A stretch of DNA of 33,543 bases from Thermodesulfovibrionales bacterium (GTDB lineage Bacteria; Nitrospirota; Thermodesulfovibrionia; Thermodesulfovibrionales; SM23-35), in the NCBI GenBank assembly GCA_030019415.1, contig JASEEX010000023.1, positions 1-33,543 of the forward strand. Direction: 5' to 3'. Shown here piece by piece: positions 283 through 9,454 of this stretch (position 1 is its first letter; the number at the start of each line of letters is the position of its first letter). A program made the position numbers and the translations under genes. Under the pieces are notes generated by a model. That model did no database searches, was not told the DNA's origin, and worked only from the letters and a program-made list of their open reading frames with translations.

Positions 283-1257
283 ATGAGCATTTTAGCAGAT
301 ATCCTGTCAAAGATAAAACATCCTGAGCCAAGGAGGGATATTCCTCCGGGGCTCAGAAGCACGGTCTCTGCCCTTAGAAAGAAGGAGTTAAATAAAAGGC
401 GAGTAATTATCCTTCTGATATTTGCCGCCATAGCATTAAGCTCGGGCTCTGTAACGGTTTATCTGATGCAGACATTTTTACCCCGCACCAACGGGTTGAC
501 ACCCGTGGTGCGGGGTTTACCCGGGGAGAGATTAAAAAGTGCTGGGGAATCCCGGGAAATCGCAAGATCAAAGGGGCCTACAGCAGTAGAGCAAACAAGT
601 AAACCCCGCACCTTTGAGATAGAACCTCATATCACCATAAAACAACCAGAGTACAAACCAGAGTATAAGAGAGAGGAAATTAAAAGAAAGCCGACAGTAA
701 GACCGGAGAGCATTGCTCAGAAAGAGAAGCCAAAGGTAGAAGAGAAGGGGGTAAAGGAGCAACCCGATGTAAGTTCCGAGGTTCGGACCTCAGAAACAAA
801 GGACCTTTATCTCTATATGGGTGGAAATTACGAAAAGAAAGGGGATTACTACAATGCCATATCCAGTTACAAAAAGGTTCTTGATATAGAACCCAAGAAT
901 TACAGGGTAATGAATAAGATAGCTTACATACTCATCCAGATAGCTTCAAATGAGGAGGCGTTGAAATATCTCGAGAATGCACTTAGCATCAAGCATGATC
1001 ATGTCCCTGCGTTAATTAATACAGGAATCGTATATGCAAAGGCAGAAAAATTCTCTGATGCAGAGAAACACCTCTTAAAGGCCCTGTCCCTCGAAGAGGC
1101 TAACCAACCGGCACTTTTTAACATCGCCACGCTTTATGAAAAACAGGGTAAATACGACCTTGCCAGACAACACTATTTAAAGCTAAAAAATCTGGGTAAT
1201 GATCAAGGACGCCTTGGCATCGAAAGGATAGAGGGGTTAACCACATCGAAAAAGTAA
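283..1257 (+). CDS. Membrane-anchored TPR protein, MshN-like pilus biogenesis protein
   Basis: A 324-residue protein with a cytoplasmic N-terminus (MSILADILSKIKHPEPRR), one membrane segment at about residues 40-62 (VIILLIFAAIALSSGSVTVY), and a Lys/Glu/Pro-rich linker (about 80-165). About four TPR repeats follow from ~170 to 310 (e.g. KKGDYYNAISSYKKVLDIEP). The architecture is that of MshN and GspB-like partners of the ExeA/MshM ATPase, which bridge the inner membrane and periplasm. It faces the mshM-like gene convergently. Two repeat insertions lie in the linker: a 39-nt hairpin element coding PRTNGLTPVVRG at residues 67-78, directly after the membrane segment, and a half element near residues 106-111. 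ATG start with a weak AGGA upstream. The TPR and membrane anchor are clear; MshN orthology rests on context. Confidence 0.75.
   Translation: MSILADILSKIKHPEPRRDIPPGLRSTVSALRKKELNKRRVIILLIFAAIALSSGSVTVYLMQTFLPRTNGLTPVVRGLPGERLKSAGESREIARSKGPTAVEQTSKPRTFEIEPHITIKQPEYKPEYKREEIKRKPTVRPESIAQKEKPKVEEKGVKEQPDVSSEVRTSETKDLYLYMGGNYEKKGDYYNAISSYKKVLDIEPKNYRVMNKIAYILIQIASNEEALKYLENALSIKHDHVPALINTGIVYAKAEKFSDAEKHLLKALSLEEANQPALFNIATLYEKQGKYDLARQHYLKLKNLGNDQGRLGIERIEGLTTSKK
477..520 (-). repeat. Hairpin element copy A (in frame, TPR gene)
   Basis: The hairpin spans 480-516. Arms ACCCCGCACC / GGTGCGGGGT plus ACGGGT / ACCCGT make 16 bp with one bulged A and a TGAC loop. It is flanked by identical direct repeats TTTAC at 477-481 and 516-520, 39 nt apart, so the net addition is 13 codons. 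In the consensus orientation (GTRAA-hairpin-GTRAA) it lies on the minus strand. Copy D at 8677-8720 is the same 37-nt sequence in another gene. Confidence 0.85.
601..614 (+). repeat. Half hairpin element (copy B)
   Basis: The sequence AAACCCCGCACCTT matches the left arm of copy C (6955-6968), but no right arm follows. It may be a decayed or incomplete copy in the TPR-protein linker, 84 bp after copy A. Confidence 0.45.
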
Positions 1258-1398
1258 AGGGACACATCCCATATTTCTTTTATTTACCTCTTTGAACAAT
1301 GTGATGCGGAAACCCTACTGCAACTGCTCTTGCTATCCTCGGCATGAAGGGATTTTACAGATTAACTGCCTTTATCAAGAAATATGGGATGTGTCCCT
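1258..1398. mobile_element. 141-bp miniature element with 22-bp perfect terminal inverted repeats
   Basis: Bases 1258-1279 (AGGGACACATCCCATATTTC plus TT) are repeated perfectly in inverse orientation at 1377-1398. The interior keeps the first 21 codons of a REP-associated (Y1/IS200-like) transposase on the minus strand, so this looks like an internally deleted, non-autonomous derivative. It fills the whole gap between two convergent genes. The plus-strand TPR stop (1255-1257) abuts its left end, and the minus-strand ATPase stop (1397-1399) uses two of its terminal bases. The inverted repeats could also act as a bidirectional terminator. No target duplication is evident. Confidence 0.8.
1280..1345 (-). 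pseudogene. N-terminal fossil of a REP-associated tyrosine transposase (Y1_Tnp)
   Basis: The minus strand from ATG at 1345 reads MPRIARAVAVGFPHHIVQRG then K and a TAA stop at 1280-1282. This is the signature N-terminus of TnpA-REP (RAYT) transposases, which usually begin M-R-A-R-V-x-G-x-P-H-H-V-x-Q-R-G-N. The real protein would continue ~150-200 residues to the catalytic HUH and Tyr motifs, which are absent here. The frame ends at the edge of the terminal inverted repeat, so the remnant cannot be functional. It identifies the parent of the surrounding miniature element. Confidence 0.85.
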
Positions 1399-2662
1399 AG
1401 TCTTTACTAACAACCTTATCTGCTATCCAGCCTTCCCTTCCATCCGGTACCTTTACCTTATACCATCTTTTACCAGTGGCTTCTTTAAATTCATCTATTA
1501 TTTCGAGGATGGCACCTTTCTGGGTCCATGCAACCCGTTCAGAATTGAGTGAGGGCCCTGATCTTAGATTGGCAGAGTTAGAAATAACGGTAGCAGTTTT
1601 TCTTTGTTCCTGTTTCTCTATAGTGCCCTTCTGTTCTGTTTCAGCGGGGCTGGGTCCCTCTGTAGCACTTTTTATTGCCTGAGTTGTATCTTTCGTATCA
1701 TGTGGCACCTGTACAGGGCTTTCGACCTTCGGGAGATTTGGGATACCTTTTTGTTCTACGAGATAGTAGTATCCTGCTGCTCCTGTGATGATAGATAAGA
1801 TAATCACTGACAGGGCATAGACCAGCTTCGAGCGCCTTTTTATCTCAACACCCATGACACCACCCTTAAGATGCCTGATGGCATATCTGACATGCTTCTT
1901 GGTAACGATGTTACTACCCTCGAGATATGCAGACATGATAGCCCTTGATGCGAGTATGTTGATGATTCGTGGTATCCCTGCAGAGAATTTATAAATGGGC
2001 TTCGATAGTCCGCCATCCAGCCTCAAGAACCCCTTTCCTGCCTTAATCAGTCTGTAGTTTATATATTCCAGTGTCTCATCACTCTGTAGCGGAGTCAGCC
2101 TTGCCCTTACTGTTATCCTCTGGCTCAATTGTCTGAGTTTATCTTTATTCAGCCTTTTCTCAAGCTCGGGCTGGGCAATCAGGATTATCTGTAAGAGTTT
2201 ATCTTTGTAAGTTTCAAGGTTTGAAAGCAGCCTTAACTCTTCAAGGGTCTCATCGGGCAGGTTCTGTGCCTCATCAACAATTATGATTACAGGCTTCCCG
2301 ATCTGGGATTTCTCTACAAGAAAGTCCCTGAATGCCTTTAATATGTCATTCTTGTTTGTCGTTGTGAGTTTTACATTCAGGTCCTCTAAGACAGACAGGA
2401 GAAATTCCTCGGGGGAAAGACGAGGGGTCAATACCAGGGCTGTCTCCGCCTTATCCCTCCAGCTTTCTTTGAATACATTAATAACGGTAGTCTTTCCTGT
2501 CCCCGGTTCCCCTGTCACAAGGCAGAAGCCTTCCTTTTGTTGCACCACATAATTCAGTGAAAGCAGGGCCTCACTATGGCTTGCTGATGGAAAGAAATAC
2601 ACAGGGTCAGGTGTCAATCTGAAGGGGTCTTCCTTTAATCCGTAAAACTCAAGGATGTCCAT
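1397..2662 (-). CDS. ExeA/MshM-like AAA+ ATPase with periplasmic SH3 domain
   Basis: A 421-residue protein. The N-terminal AAA domain is typical of ExeA/GspA/MshM (MDILEFYGLKEDPFRLTPDP), with Walker A GEPGTGKT at ~51-58 and Walker B VIIIVDEAQ at ~125-133. One membrane segment lies at ~280-300 (LVYALSVIILSIITGAAGYY). The C-terminal ~65 residues form a bacterial SH3 domain (NLRSGPSLNSERV, then GREGWIADKVV) likely to bind peptidoglycan. ExeA-type ATPases couple ATP hydrolysis to assembly of the secretin through the cell wall. It overlaps the upstream platform gene by one base (TAATG). Its stop codon is shared with the end of the miniature element, so the native C-terminus may have been clipped or set by that insertion. 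Confidence 0.88.
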   Translation of the reverse strand: MDILEFYGLKEDPFRLTPDPVYFFPSASHSEALLSLNYVVQQKEGFCLVTGEPGTGKTTVINVFKESWRDKAETALVLTPRLSPEEFLLSVLEDLNVKLTTTNKNDILKAFRDFLVEKSQIGKPVIIIVDEAQNLPDETLEELRLLSNLETYKDKLLQIILIAQPELEKRLNKDKLRQLSQRITVRARLTPLQSDETLEYINYRLIKAGKGFLRLDGGLSKPIYKFSAGIPRIINILASRAIMSAYLEGSNIVTKKHVRYAIRHLKGGVMGVEIKRRSKLVYALSVIILSIITGAAGYYYLVEQKGIPNLPKVESPVQVPHDTKDTTQAIKSATEGPSPAETEQKGTIEKQEQRKTATVISNSANLRSGPSLNSERVAWTQKGAILEIIDEFKEATGKRWYKVKVPDGREGWIADKVVSKD

Positions 2663-5529: not shown

Positions 5530-7032
5530 TCATGGTGTTACTATCGTTGGTTTCAACATTATAACAAGCTCTGTCTTTTCATCGAGCCTCTTCCGACTCT
5601 TAAATAGATACCCTATCAGTGGAATATCGCCGAGAAGGGGGACCTTACTGTCCTCTAATACCTCCTTTTTCTGCATAAGACCCCCGATTATGACCATCTC
5701 TCCATCCTTGACCCTGACAGTGGTGCTTAACTGCCTGAGATCAACTGTTGGCAGAGAAATCTGTATAATGTTTTCTCCAACCTTTCCGAGCGTCTTGTCC
5801 TCCAATCTTATGAGGTCAGAAACTATAGGTGTTATAGCCATAGTTATCTCTCCCGTATCACTTATATACGGGACGATTCCGATAATAATACCTGAAAGGA
5901 TGCCGCTGGTCTCGACTGTAAAGGTGGTAGTAGGCAAGACCCCTGTGGCTGCGGTTGTGGTGGTTGTCTCGACCCTCGATATGAAGTTTACATTTCTTCC
6001 GACATTCAAGAGTGAGGTCTGCCCATTCATGATATTCACCCTCGGATTTGAAAGCACCCTTACATTTCCCTGGGTCTGGAGGGCCTTTAACAAGGCGGTA
6101 AAGTCCCTTCCTGTAATGCCAATATGAAAATTGGACAGGGCCTCGGTCACAACAGTCGCAAACTCCTCTGTTCCCACTGTGACCCGACCCAGACCACTTT
6201 TCTCTAATACCGCTGTCCAGTCAATTCCATATCTCAGACTCTCGGACAGTTGCACCTCTACAATACGGGCCTCAATAATAACCTGCCTGTTGAGTGCCTT
6301 CTTGATCGCTGCGAGATAATTCTCCACCCTTTCCAGATCCTTCTTCGTGGCAGTAACAATTATAGTCCCTGTCATCCTGTTAACGCTAAAACTTGCAATA
6401 CCCGGCAGGCCCGCTATCGCCTTTTCTATGGAATCCCATAGTTTAAAAGAGGTTTTATCGCTCTCTAACTTTTGTGTCACACTACCTTTGATTCCTGTAG
6501 CGCCCGTTACACCTGCAGCACCACCCAATATGTCACCTCCGACATCAACAGCATAATCCTGAATAACCGGTGGCTGGCCGAATTCAAACACCCTTGTGTC
6601 CATTGCCTTCACAGTGAGGATGTTCTCTTTTACGGAATAGAAATAGTCCACAGAAGCGACGATTATATTCAGGGCATCCTCTGCACTGATATGCCTTAAT
6701 GTAACCGTCAGAGGTATTTCAGGATTCACCCCCTTCTCCATCACAAGGTTCAGCCCTGTAGCTTCGGCTATGACATGAAGGACATCCCTTAGCGGGGTAT
6801 CCCTTGCTGAGATGGAAACAATCCTTGTCTTTAATGGCAAAAGCTCCTCAGAGACAGGTATAAAATTAGGGGGACCCTGAACCGCTACTGGTTCAGGGGG
6901 ACCCTGAACCGCTACTGGTTCGGGGGGAGGCGGCTGAGAGGCGGCCACTGCAATAAACCCCGCACCTTCGTAAAGGTGCAGGGTTAAAATAACAAGGCAT
7001 AAGGAACAAAGAATGCAGGGCAACCTTATCAT
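5530..7032 (-). CDS. mshL: Secretin, MSHA-type (MshL/PilQ/GspD family)
   Basis: A 500-residue outer-membrane secretin through which the pilus exits. It has an N-terminal signal peptide (MIRLPCILCSLCLVI...), an STN/N0 domain at ~70-130 (DTPLRDVLHVIAEATGLNLV), an N1-like domain (~205-250), and the conserved secretin domain to the end. The family hallmark VPLLGDIPLIGYLF is at ~470. Two different repeat insertions lie near the N-terminus. A hairpin element codes TLHLYEGAGF inside the signal peptide (~17-26). A tandem pair of 27-nt units codes EPVAVQGPP twice (~38-55) in the linker. Both keep the frame. The start overlaps the PilP-like gene by 4 nt (ATGA). Function is certain at family level; the MSHA label follows from neighbours and size. 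Confidence 0.92.
   Translation of the reverse strand: MIRLPCILCSLCLVILTLHLYEGAGFIAVAASQPPPPEPVAVQGPPEPVAVQGPPNFIPVSEELLPLKTRIVSISARDTPLRDVLHVIAEATGLNLVMEKGVNPEIPLTVTLRHISAEDALNIIVASVDYFYSVKENILTVKAMDTRVFEFGQPPVIQDYAVDVGGDILGGAAGVTGATGIKGSVTQKLESDKTSFKLWDSIEKAIAGLPGIASFSVNRMTGTIIVTATKKDLERVENYLAAIKKALNRQVIIEARIVEVQLSESLRYGIDWTAVLEKSGLGRVTVGTEEFATVVTEALSNFHIGITGRDFTALLKALQTQGNVRVLSNPRVNIMNGQTSLLNVGRNVNFISRVETTTTTAATGVLPTTTFTVETSGILSGIIIGIVPYISDTGEITMAITPIVSDLIRLEDKTLGKVGENIIQISLPTVDLRQLSTTVRVKDGEMVIIGGLMQKKEVLEDSKVPLLGDIPLIGYLFKSRKRLDEKTELVIMLKPTIVTP
6875..6925 (-). repeat. Tandem pair of 27-nt palindromic units in the secretin linker
   Basis: Two copies of CCCTGAACC-gctact-GGTTC(A/G)GGG start at 6875 and 6902, exactly 27 nt (9 codons) apart. 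Short GGGGGACC-type sequences separate and flank them. Each codes EPVAVQGPP on the minus strand. The same palindrome, inverted, is in the PilO-like gene at 7585-7619. Confidence 0.85.
6953..6987 (+). repeat. Hairpin element copy C (in frame, secretin signal peptide)
   Basis: Arms ACCCCGCACCTT (6957-6968) and AAGGTGCAGGGT (6973-6984) pair at 11 of 12 positions around a CGTA loop. Flanking ATAAA and GTTAA are imperfect direct repeats 30 nt apart (10 codons). It codes TLHLYEGAGF in the signal peptide of the secretin. Confidence 0.75.
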
Positions 7033-7530: not shown

Positions 7531-8081
7531 TTGCCTGGCATCCTCAGCGAACCATCTATCTTACATATTATAATAGCACCAGATGGTCCCCCCGAACCAG
7601 TAGCGGTTCGGGGTCCCCCTGCCTTTGCAATTACAATGTTATTTATGGCAAGATATGGAAAATTCAGAGACTGCAGGTATCCAACGTTATTCACCAGCAC
7701 CGCATAGTCATCAACAGGGATACGGATATTTACAGGAAGGGTTATCTCACCTGCCTTATCACCGAAGTTTGTTACAGTTATGTCAGCACCCTTAATAGTC
7801 ATCTTTATGTCATCGAGTGCTAATAGTATGCTCTCTTTATGGCTTTTTGAATAATAGTAAGGTGGCAGTAGATTGTTTATCCCTTTTATCACCGAATCAA
7901 TATCCATTGCGGTCTGTTTCATCCTCAAGGCATTTATCCTTATAAGCTCGAACTTCCTTATTGTATCTAAGAGGCTGTTTTCATATTTAGTGAGTACAGT
8001 AACAGAGACAATGATTATACTCAGGGTTATTCCTGCAATGAGGTGAAGGGTAATGGTTCTTTTGAGTTCACTATAGATCAT
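7512..8081 (-). CDS. PilO-like inner-membrane pilus protein (MshJ position)
   Basis: A 189-residue bitopic protein: a short cytoplasmic N-terminus, a membrane helix at ~10-31 (TLHLIAGITLSIIIVSVTVL), a coiled-coil-like stretch (~33-70), then a ferredoxin-like periplasmic domain. This is the PilO/MshJ layout, in which the protein pairs with PilN/MshI to align the platform with the secretin. A 27-nt palindromic insertion codes GGPRTATGSGGP at ~155-166, in a turn between two strands (YLAINNIVIA and AIIICKIDGSL). It overlaps the upstream MshI-like gene by 4 nt (ATGA). No sequence motif alone identifies it; the call rests on topology and operon order. Confidence 0.7.
   Translation of the reverse strand: MIYSELKRTITLHLIAGITLSIIIVSVTVLTKYENSLLDTIRKFELIRINALRMKQTAMDIDSVIKGINNLLPPYYYSKSHKESILLALDDIKMTIKGADITVTNFGDKAGEITLPVNIRIPVDDYAVLVNNVGYLQSLNFPYLAINNIVIAKAGGPRTATGSGGPSGAIIICKIDGSLRMPGKEIGRL
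7585..7619 (+). repeat. 27-nt palindromic insertion in the PilO-like gene
   Basis: The palindrome CCCCGAACC-agtagc-GGTTCGGGG (7590-7613) is perfect in its arms and flanked by identical direct repeats GGTCCCCC at 7585-7592 and 7612-7619, 27 nt apart. It is the same unit as the tandem pair in the secretin gene, in inverse orientation, so a different peptide (GGPRTATGS) is read. Confidence 0.88.
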
Positions 8082-9454
8082 TGATATTCCATCTTTATAT
8101 GAAAACTTTTATCTTTAAAGTCAAGACCATGGCTCTTTATACTGACACCTTTTAGACCCGCAATCGAGTTAATGAGTTTCTGATAATCCATCTGCATACC
8201 TGCATAACCCTCTGTCTTTACTGACCCCTTCAGCTCTACATTCAAAATATTATTGCCTGTATTTATAGATATGTAATCTATCCTTATACTATCCACCTTC
8301 AGTTCAGAAAGTAAATACAGAAACCTTTGAATATCAGGAATTGATGCAGCATTCCTGAAGGATGTCACAAAAGGCATATACCCAGCAAGCTCGGCCTTTT
8401 TCATGTCGTATATGGTTAGTGTGTTATCAATATCGGGAAGGTTTCTTCTTATGGAGCTAAGTCTGTCCTTCGATTCCATAATATTTTTTACTATGAACCC
8501 TGTATAAACCATACCTATAATGGAAAGCGACAGGAACAGAGCAGTGGAATACCTCAAAAGCAGCCTTGTGCGGAAAAGATTCTTATACTCTATGGTTAAT
8601 AGGTTTATATCCCTATCCCTCGGGATAAAAAGTGCCGAGAGTGGAGATATAAAGTCAAGAAGTGCACTGCTCATCTGTGAACCCCGCACCACGGGTGTCA
8701 ACCCGTTGGTGCGGGGTGAACGAAAGGACTGGTGTGTGAGGCAGGCTATGGGTATTGATGTATCCACAGTTACATTGTAATTACTGCAGAGGCTTCCTAT
8801 AAGCATGATAAGATATGGATTTATCTTTAGAGCCTGTCTACAATAATTAATAGTCATCTTAATGCCCTGAATATCAACATCCCCGATTCCCTGTTCAAGG
8901 GATTGGGCTATCCTGATGAATTGCATCACACCATCTTTAATCAAAAATATATTTTTATTAAGACCTGTCTCTGAAACGCATAGCAACGGCATCGGTTCTG
9001 GCCTTATCAGACAGGCGAGAGAAAATATATCAGGATAAATCGCCTTTATGACCTTGCCCTTAAAAATAAATCTATTAACTATCTCTTTTATGTCCTCATT
9101 CCTGACAGCAAAGACAAAGACCTCTTTCATCCTCCTCTGTTGCACAATCTTTTCGCCTGTTGTTGTATAAATGAAGGAGAAATCTTTGAATTGAGACCTT
9201 TTCCTTATCTCTGCTTCAACCAGTATTTTGATTAATCTTGCTTTTGTCGGTGGGACAAGGATTGTATCCTGGAAAAAATCCTTAAAGCTGTTTACAACTA
9301 TGAATTCCTTCCTCTTTTCCTTAAGAAGAAAGTCATCAAACTGTTCATTCCTTAATATGAGGGCATCATCAACTACAATGTTTTTTCTCCTGAATGTGGC
9401 GTAAAGAACTCTTATGGTTTCATCTTCAAAACTTACTACTATAGCCCTTCCCAA
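8078..9454 (-). CDS. MshI-like protein: PilM-like domain joined to PilN-like membrane segment
   Basis: A 458-residue protein. Residues ~1-290 form an actin-fold PilM/GspL-like cytoplasmic domain (MGRAIVVSFEDETIRVLYAT; QGIKMTINYCRQALKINPYL). A membrane helix lies at ~301-323 (YSTALFLSLSIIGMVYTGFI). The rest (~330-458) is a PilN-like coiled coil and periplasmic domain. This single-chain PilM+PilN arrangement is that of MshI. A 39-nt hairpin element codes PRTNGLTPVVRG at ~247-258, probably on a surface loop. The start is TTG at 9454 with AGGGG five to six bases upstream, and a strong promoter lies just ahead. It probably heads the minus-strand operon through mshM. Confidence 0.78.
   Translation of the reverse strand: MGRAIVVSFEDETIRVLYATFRRKNIVVDDALILRNEQFDDFLLKEKRKEFIVVNSFKDFFQDTILVPPTKARLIKILVEAEIRKRSQFKDFSFIYTTTGEKIVQQRRMKEVFVFAVRNEDIKEIVNRFIFKGKVIKAIYPDIFSLACLIRPEPMPLLCVSETGLNKNIFLIKDGVMQFIRIAQSLEQGIGDVDIQGIKMTINYCRQALKINPYLIMLIGSLCSNYNVTVDTSIPIACLTHQSFRSPRTNGLTPVVRGSQMSSALLDFISPLSALFIPRDRDINLLTIEYKNLFRTRLLLRYSTALFLSLSIIGMVYTGFIVKNIMESKDRLSSIRRNLPDIDNTLTIYDMKKAELAGYMPFVTSFRNAASIPDIQRFLYLLSELKVDSIRIDYISINTGNNILNVELKGSVKTEGYAGMQMDYQKLINSIAGLKGVSIKSHGLDFKDKSFHIKMEYQ
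8677..8720 (+). repeat. Hairpin element copy D (in frame, MshI-like gene)
   Basis: The 37-nt hairpin at 8681-8717 is the exact reverse complement of copy A (480-516). It is flanked by identical direct repeats GTGAA (8677-8681 and 8716-8720), 39 nt apart. The host gene is on the minus strand, so the peptide read is again PRTNGLTPVVRG, in the same frame as in copy A. Confidence 0.9.

Follow-up and report, generated by a model that had tools for sequence, protein, structure and literature searches.

A 141-base stretch bounded by inverted repeats lies between two convergent genes of a Thermodesulfovibrionales bacterium, and the locus raises the question of what this stretch is, how it came to be there and whether elements of its kind move. 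An earlier note on this DNA had read it as a miniature element carrying the fossil start of a REP-associated transposase. We followed this reading up in the window (the whole stretch of DNA analysed, 33,543 nucleotides), in the source genome (G000; 1.94 Mb in 166 contigs) and in the other genomes of the comparison, all but a few of which are metagenome assemblies of different species. Handles beginning with G, C and L denote genomes, contigs and fetched loci, respectively.

Structure of the element

The features of the locus are collected in Table 1. The terminal repeats are perfect reverse complements over 22 bp, as the earlier note had described them. An unrestricted repeat search of the window returned the pair as I4 (29 nt at 90%, 97 nt apart); no other inverted repeat with closely spaced arms was longer. 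The 12-nt core GGGACACATCCC occurs at just two sites in the window, both of them element ends, against 0.15 expected with one mismatch allowed. The end pattern was found in 76 of the 176 genomes of the order, while the reversed control pattern gave 3 hits in all. Together with the presence of the same ends on intact elements, this refutes the view that repeat and remnant are a chance pattern, the probability of which we consider negligible.

Table 1. Features of the element and its neighbours in the window, and terminal repeats of other Y1 genes of the source genome.
Feature	Position	Strand	Basis or sequence
Miniature (non-autonomous) TIRYT element core, repeat to repeat	1258-1398	- (transposase-remnant orientation)	22-bp perfect inverted repeats; ends as on intact elements of the same genome; missing in five relatives
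Terminal inverted repeat, right end (transposase orientation)	1258-1279	+	AGGGACACATCCCATATTTCTT, perfect complement of 1377-1398
Terminal inverted repeat, left end, start-codon side of the transposase	1377-1398	-	AGGGACACATCCCATATTTCTT on the minus strand
First 21 codons of Y1 transposase and stop at the deletion joint (MPRIARAVAVGFPHHIVQRGK*)	1280-1345	-	Codon comparison with C121
Putative 7-nt tail AAGTAAA (counted outward from GGG), containing last codon and stop of the TPR gene	1252-1258		Inferred from flank sharing in the family
Putative 7-nt tail TAGTCTT, other side, providing the end of the ATPase reading frame	1398-1404		Inferred from flank sharing in the family
TPR gene, convergent with the ATPase gene	283-1257	+	ORF; Pfam TPR_2 1.3e-16
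AAA ATPase with SH3 domain; TAG stop completed by the element	1397-2662	-	Pfam AAA_22 9.2e-28, SH3_3
Y1 gene of C103			Repeat GGGGACACCATAC
Y1 gene of C122			Repeat GGGGTCAGGTCTTG
Y1 gene of C95			Repeat GGGTCAGGTCTACGC
Y1 gene of C132			Palindrome TTACACCTCCGAGGTGTAA

The element lacks an intact transposase gene. The 21 transposase codons and stop that had been noticed within it were confirmed codon by codon against the intact gene of contig C121: the frame consists of ATG, 20 codons and TAA, and the stop was created by the deletion joint (GGT AAA TAA). The 20 codons after the start differ from those of C121 at seven synonymous positions and one non-synonymous position. Since the differences are almost solely silent, the deletion is probably recent and the parent gene probably still worked before it. 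The nearest intact copy is a cousin of the remnant rather than its direct parent. An internal deletion very probably removed everything except the first 21 codons and the inverted ends.

When the source genome was searched for the ends, no second copy of the 141-bp version was found, and the window copy may therefore have arisen by deletion in situ. According to this alternative, a whole transposon inserted here and its middle was deleted afterwards, with no episode of movement as a miniature; this reading differs from the explanation that we prefer only in the history of the window copy. The near-silent differences from the intact copy are what it would predict if the parent gene worked until recently, but other miniatures of the window's family and of a sister family do multiply (see below), so that movement as a miniature is possible. 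We regard ruin in place as a serious, if tentative, alternative.

On both strands the element folds into a stem of 22 bp or more (z-scores of -5.8 and -6.4), and the element sits exactly between two stop codons. These two features would suit a hairpin that the host keeps to end transcription in both directions between the convergent genes. However, terminator and promoter scans at the element returned nothing, the junction is element-free in relatives, and the stem simply follows from the inverted repeats; a role as terminator is therefore improbable.

Junction with the flanking genes

The TPR gene stops with TAA at 1255-1257 and the ATPase gene with TAG on the minus strand (1399-1397), the last two bases of which lie inside the element. 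The best NCBIfam model for the ATPase is TIGR03015, with 249 bits below a cut-off of 324.5. Neither of the convergent genes is disrupted. The statement that the element exactly fills the space between them stands for the two repeats, which abut the TPR stop and overlap the ATPase stop, but the mobile unit itself seems to be wider. Because copies of the family share 7 nt outside the repeat, the unit in the window is suggested to span about 1252-1404, a few nucleotides beyond the repeats on each side. In that case the final codons and stops of both neighbouring genes would be borne by the element. This agrees with the nearest ATPase orthologues (G015 and G001), which end at the same codon in other sequence and without the element.

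A comparison with relatives for the empty site, which the earlier note had proposed, showed an element-free TPR/ATPase junction in five of them (G015, G001, G006, G041 and G030). In the family with GGGACAC ends more generally, the junction terminates a frame of 60 codons or more at 10 of 95 distinct ends, and the stop is mostly formed by TA and the first G of the element (TAG). Such frames were seen at window positions 1397-1399 and in L025, L044, L128, L138, L140, L151 and L028.

Intact relatives in the same genome

The earlier note had named the absence of further termini and of intact Y1 genes as the outcome that would speak against it; both were found. A 19-base end gave 14 matches in the source genome at up to 3 mismatches (reversed control, 0), and the genome holds seven Y1 transposase genes. 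Full-length copies with the ends of the window element and an open Y1 gene are located at C121:1458-2205 (748 bp) and C55:41946-42690 (745 bp), and a 54-bp copy with the same ends at C77:1609-1662. Further copies belong to a variant family with ends GGGACACTTCCC. Of the five remaining Y1 genes, at least four carry distinct repeats of their own, as inspection of the flanks showed (Table 1). In L028 (G000:C110), two GGGACACTTCCC ends at positions 47 and 1747, 1.7 kb apart, are followed by the same downstream sequence, which suggests a duplicated segment.

The C121 protein matches Pfam Y1_Tnp (PF01797) above the cut-off (1.9e-20), and its best NCBIfam model is REP_Tyr_transpos, at 73 bits below the cut-off of 80. 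The NHVH and YIEQNP motifs are present in the sequence of the intact relatives. Pfam showed Y1_Tnp alone in the C121 protein and no C-terminal helix-turn-helix, a result compatible with a divergent domain below threshold.

Classification among Y1 elements

Y1 genes located between terminal inverted repeats (TIRs) have been named TIRYT, and the corresponding units TIRtrons (Di Nocera et al. 2013, PMC3733652). Some of these TIRs share the motif GGGGWSAS (PMC3733652), and TIRYTs are separated in the literature from the REP-flanked RAYTs (PMC3733652, PMC6006769). The intact relatives of the window element carry the HUH and tyrosine motifs of a Y1_Tnp enzyme, of which the window copy retains just 21 codons, and the C121 and C55 genes are both flanked by long terminal inverted repeats in place of REPs. 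The window sequence AGGGACAC fits GGGGWSAS at 7 of 8 positions, while GGGGACAC and GGGGTCAG, taken from other elements of the genome, match it completely; the published motif is itself shared by some TIRs only. As in the published TIRtrons, a Y1 gene lies between TIRs close to GGGGWSAS, and the repeats are also found as short dimers at other places in the genome (PMC3733652). Nitrospirota, empty sites and target sites go unmentioned in that study, and the present elements add to the published ones a remnant-bearing deletion derivative, empty orthologous sites, carried 7-nt tails and scars at the ends.

On these grounds the element appears to be of the TIRYT/TIRtron kind and not a canonical RAYT/REP element. 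It would also count as a MITE, having its ends in common with an autonomous element of the same genome and no intact transposase; multiple transposed copies were seen for other miniatures, and for the 141-bp version there is the single copy. That the 141-base stretch is a TIRYT-derived miniature is near certain, and we consider it very probably a non-autonomous, MITE-like deletion derivative of a one-protein TIRYT transposon.

The label of REP-associated transposase can be kept for the enzyme superfamily (Y1, as in RAYTs) but not for the type of element. A canonical REPIN consists of two inverted REPs moved by a REP-associated RAYT that recognises GTAG-type hairpins. The window element resembles REPINs in its two inverted ends, which make one hairpin, in being non-autonomous and in its presumed mobilisation in trans by a Y1 enzyme (Bertels and Rainey 2011, PMC3116915), and the superfamily and the best NCBIfam model are likewise those that a REPIN would lead one to expect. 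Against this, the ends lie near the TIRYT consensus, and the GTAG/GTGG foot is missing, which already contradicts a REPIN. The transposase gene, moreover, lies inside the mobile unit and is present in multiple copies between its own ends, whereas RAYTs are single-copy. A REPIN is thus highly unlikely. Nor do the ends bear the GTRAA motif that the earlier note had described at the foot of the intragenic hairpins: the foot of the ends is ATTA in 45 of 95 ends, and neither GTAG nor GTGG is among the 28 foot tetranucleotides observed. ATTA could be a target preference or part of the end.

Most TIRYT genes have been placed in TnpAY1 subclass 2.1, described as low copy and without features of insertion sequences (Quentin et al. 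2018, PMC6006769). With this subclass (RAYT group 1) the present enzymes share the NHVH HUH, W[EQ] and YIExNP tyrosine motifs, a length of ~220-240 amino acids and the lack of a REP nearby (PMC6006769). They differ from it in forming multicopy elements whose presence varies between relatives. As Pfam found in C121 none of the C-terminal helix-turn-helix domains of the subclass (Bac_DnaA_C, HTH_23 or HTH_28), we do not claim membership.

The IS200/IS605 elements (IS608, ISDra2) also have a Y1 HUH enzyme, lack target duplication and are cut outside structured ends. Elements of the IS608 type combine subterminal hairpins with fixed tetranucleotides for cleavage and target. In the present family, by contrast, the inverted repeats are long and the tails are largely free in sequence.

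Spread and movement of the family

Paired ends enclose either 711-759 bp, mostly with an intact gene, or 47-405 bp in miniatures, with a few intermediate sizes; the full-length elements measure ~740-760 bp. The full-length transposase genes have a median pairwise dN/dS of 0.11, which points to purifying selection. The sister end families GGGGACACCATAC and GGGGTCAGGTCTTG are likewise spread over the order.

Several sites are occupied in one genome and empty in another. An element adjacent to tRNA-Arg in G005 is missing in five relatives, and the C120 element of G004 is missing in G016, with flanks 91% identical. The empty sites come from other species, and G004/G016 alone gives single-base resolution of the junction. 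The 'empty' site of G016 (L375 against L354) holds GGCATCAGGTCATT, which matches the repeat GGGGTCAGGTCTTG at 10 of 14 bases and may be an excision footprint. In the sister family with GGGGTCAGG ends, G078 contains four 175-bp miniatures that are 89-94% identical and lie at unrelated loci. For the window's own family, two near-identical 64-bp copies occupy two sites in G087, and a third relative occurs in G041. Judged from these copies and sites, the family moves between loci, and the miniatures of both families multiply as miniatures.

This G041 miniature lies in frame within mnmE (L067 525-590; G041:C8:153324-153389), where it adds ~22 residues to the GTPase domain, between the motifs NKSD and SAL; it is missing from G030 and G050. 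In G061 (query flank of L355), an element adjoins a repeat with ~40 genome copies that are ~81-95% identical. Among phage records, none encodes a close relative of the transposase, and of two pattern scans of viral contigs for sister-family ends, one returned a single locus and the other none.

Shared tails and probable cut position

We compared the flanks of end pairs that have at least 97% interior identity and lie at unrelated loci (24 pairs from three families). Flank identity was 0.91 at positions -7 to -1 and 0.26 at -14 to -8. The same step, with lower values, was seen in 78 older pairs (85-97% interior identity). Pairs of the GGGGTCAGG family with unrelated interiors were near background (0.26-0.38) at all seven positions, and a family motif alone therefore does not explain the step.

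The mobile unit thus most likely extends 7 nt past each repeat. Across 89 paired elements, target duplication showed no excess over permuted flanks, whether the repeat tips or the positions outside the 7-nt tails were compared; matches above permuted flanks were due to self-complementary ATTA/TAAT next to the repeats. The target site duplication typical of DDE-type MITEs was accordingly not seen in these elements. Because closely related copies at unrelated loci share exactly 7 nt and target duplication is absent, cleavage probably takes place 7 nt beyond the repeat, an assignment that we hold with moderate confidence. Tails and absent duplication fit the single-strand mechanism of Y1 enzymes, a chemistry presumed here from the enzyme family. 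Cleavage between C and T, as in E. coli TnpAREP, was considered and rejected, as no such dinucleotide is prominent at the -8/-7 step or at the borders of the scars described next.

Tandem scars at the ends

Exact head-to-tail duplications across the terminus were found at 33 of 193 ends of the window's family, 16 of 118 of the GGGGTCAGG family and 8 of 46 of the GGGGACACC family (14-17%). With a looser criterion (repeat of at least 9 nt), 43 of the 193 ends qualified, compared with 1% of the ATTA sites that served as controls in these loci. The scars peak at the junction and are gone 150 nt away. In nearly all cases they reach 7-16 nt outward from the repeat, and their inner border varies from 0 to 40 nt inside it. 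Most scars of the window's family begin 1-7 nt past the 7-nt boundary, a position that a simple model of cutting at -7 leaves unexplained. TIRYT loci with scars include L038, L042, L044, L054, L055, L137, L141, L188, L205, L372 and L408.

Two other causes were rejected. In a finished plasmid, pTHAF3_a of Pseudoalteromonas sp. THAF3, a distant TIRYT gene has a 30-bp unit in three copies at one of its ends, which speaks against an assembly artefact. Replication slippage by microhomology is not needed for most scars, since the run length equals the period in about half of them, which are exact, and exceeds it by 1-3 nt in nearly all others. Tandem repetition of REPs together with variable flanking DNA is known (PMC3733652), and by analogy the scars may be its TIRYT counterpart. 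In the open-access literature we found no description of the shared 7-nt tails or of the terminal tandem duplications.

Proposed mechanism

In the mechanism that we propose, the transposase would act on single-stranded DNA in which the two inverted repeats pair into one long stem. A cut about 7 nt outside each repeat would leave every copy with 7-nt tails, and the element would be joined to a new, usually AT-rich site without target duplication. The window element would have landed at the stop codons of the two convergent genes, and intact copies in the same genome could supply the enzyme for its mobilisation in trans. Occasional aberrant processing of an end would yield an exact tandem duplication reaching from ~7-16 nt outside to 0-40 nt inside the repeat. 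Such 'stutter' scars could perhaps arise if a nick outside the repeat were extended by limited strand-displacement synthesis and the tyrosine-bound 5' end were then re-ligated.

On balance we favour the view that TIRYT-type enzymes are working transposases that cut at -7, carry 7 nt along, make no target duplication, drive miniatures and leave stutter scars. Such enzymes have so far been regarded as domesticated or of unknown role, and a 2021 study of REP/RAYT systems stated that evidence for movement of tnpAREP genes is lacking and that their mechanism of dissemination is unknown (PMC8266576). The copies described here give evidence, at the level of sequence, for movement of the REP-free branch, and they bear on the question whether enzymes of this kind still move DNA. 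They also yield a predicted cut position, 7 nt outside the repeat, and a scar for which any mechanism would have to account.

Other repeats in the window

The earlier note had further suggested that a full-length relative could mobilise a set of intragenic hairpins of the CCCCG type. Full-length relatives do exist (C121 and C55), but their link to the hairpins found no support: the hairpins are unrelated in sequence to the element ends, their foot differs, and none flanks any of the seven Y1 genes of the source genome. The pattern CCCCGCACCNNNGGGT occurred, among 404 fetched loci, only in those that contain the window copy itself. The CCCCG hairpins were therefore not retained as cargo of the enzyme.

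Two other repeats were observed inside genes of the window. A 44-nt palindromic sequence occurs at 477-520 and 8677-8720, within two genes and with 95% complementarity between the sites; it reads PRTNGLTPVVRG in the same sense in both genes and has the appearance of a palindrome inserted in frame, with no relation to the element. The repeat AGGGGGACCCTGAACCGCTACTGGTTC (6868-6928 and 7585-7621), tandem in one gene and inverted in a nearby one, encodes PPEPVAVQGPP-like stretches.
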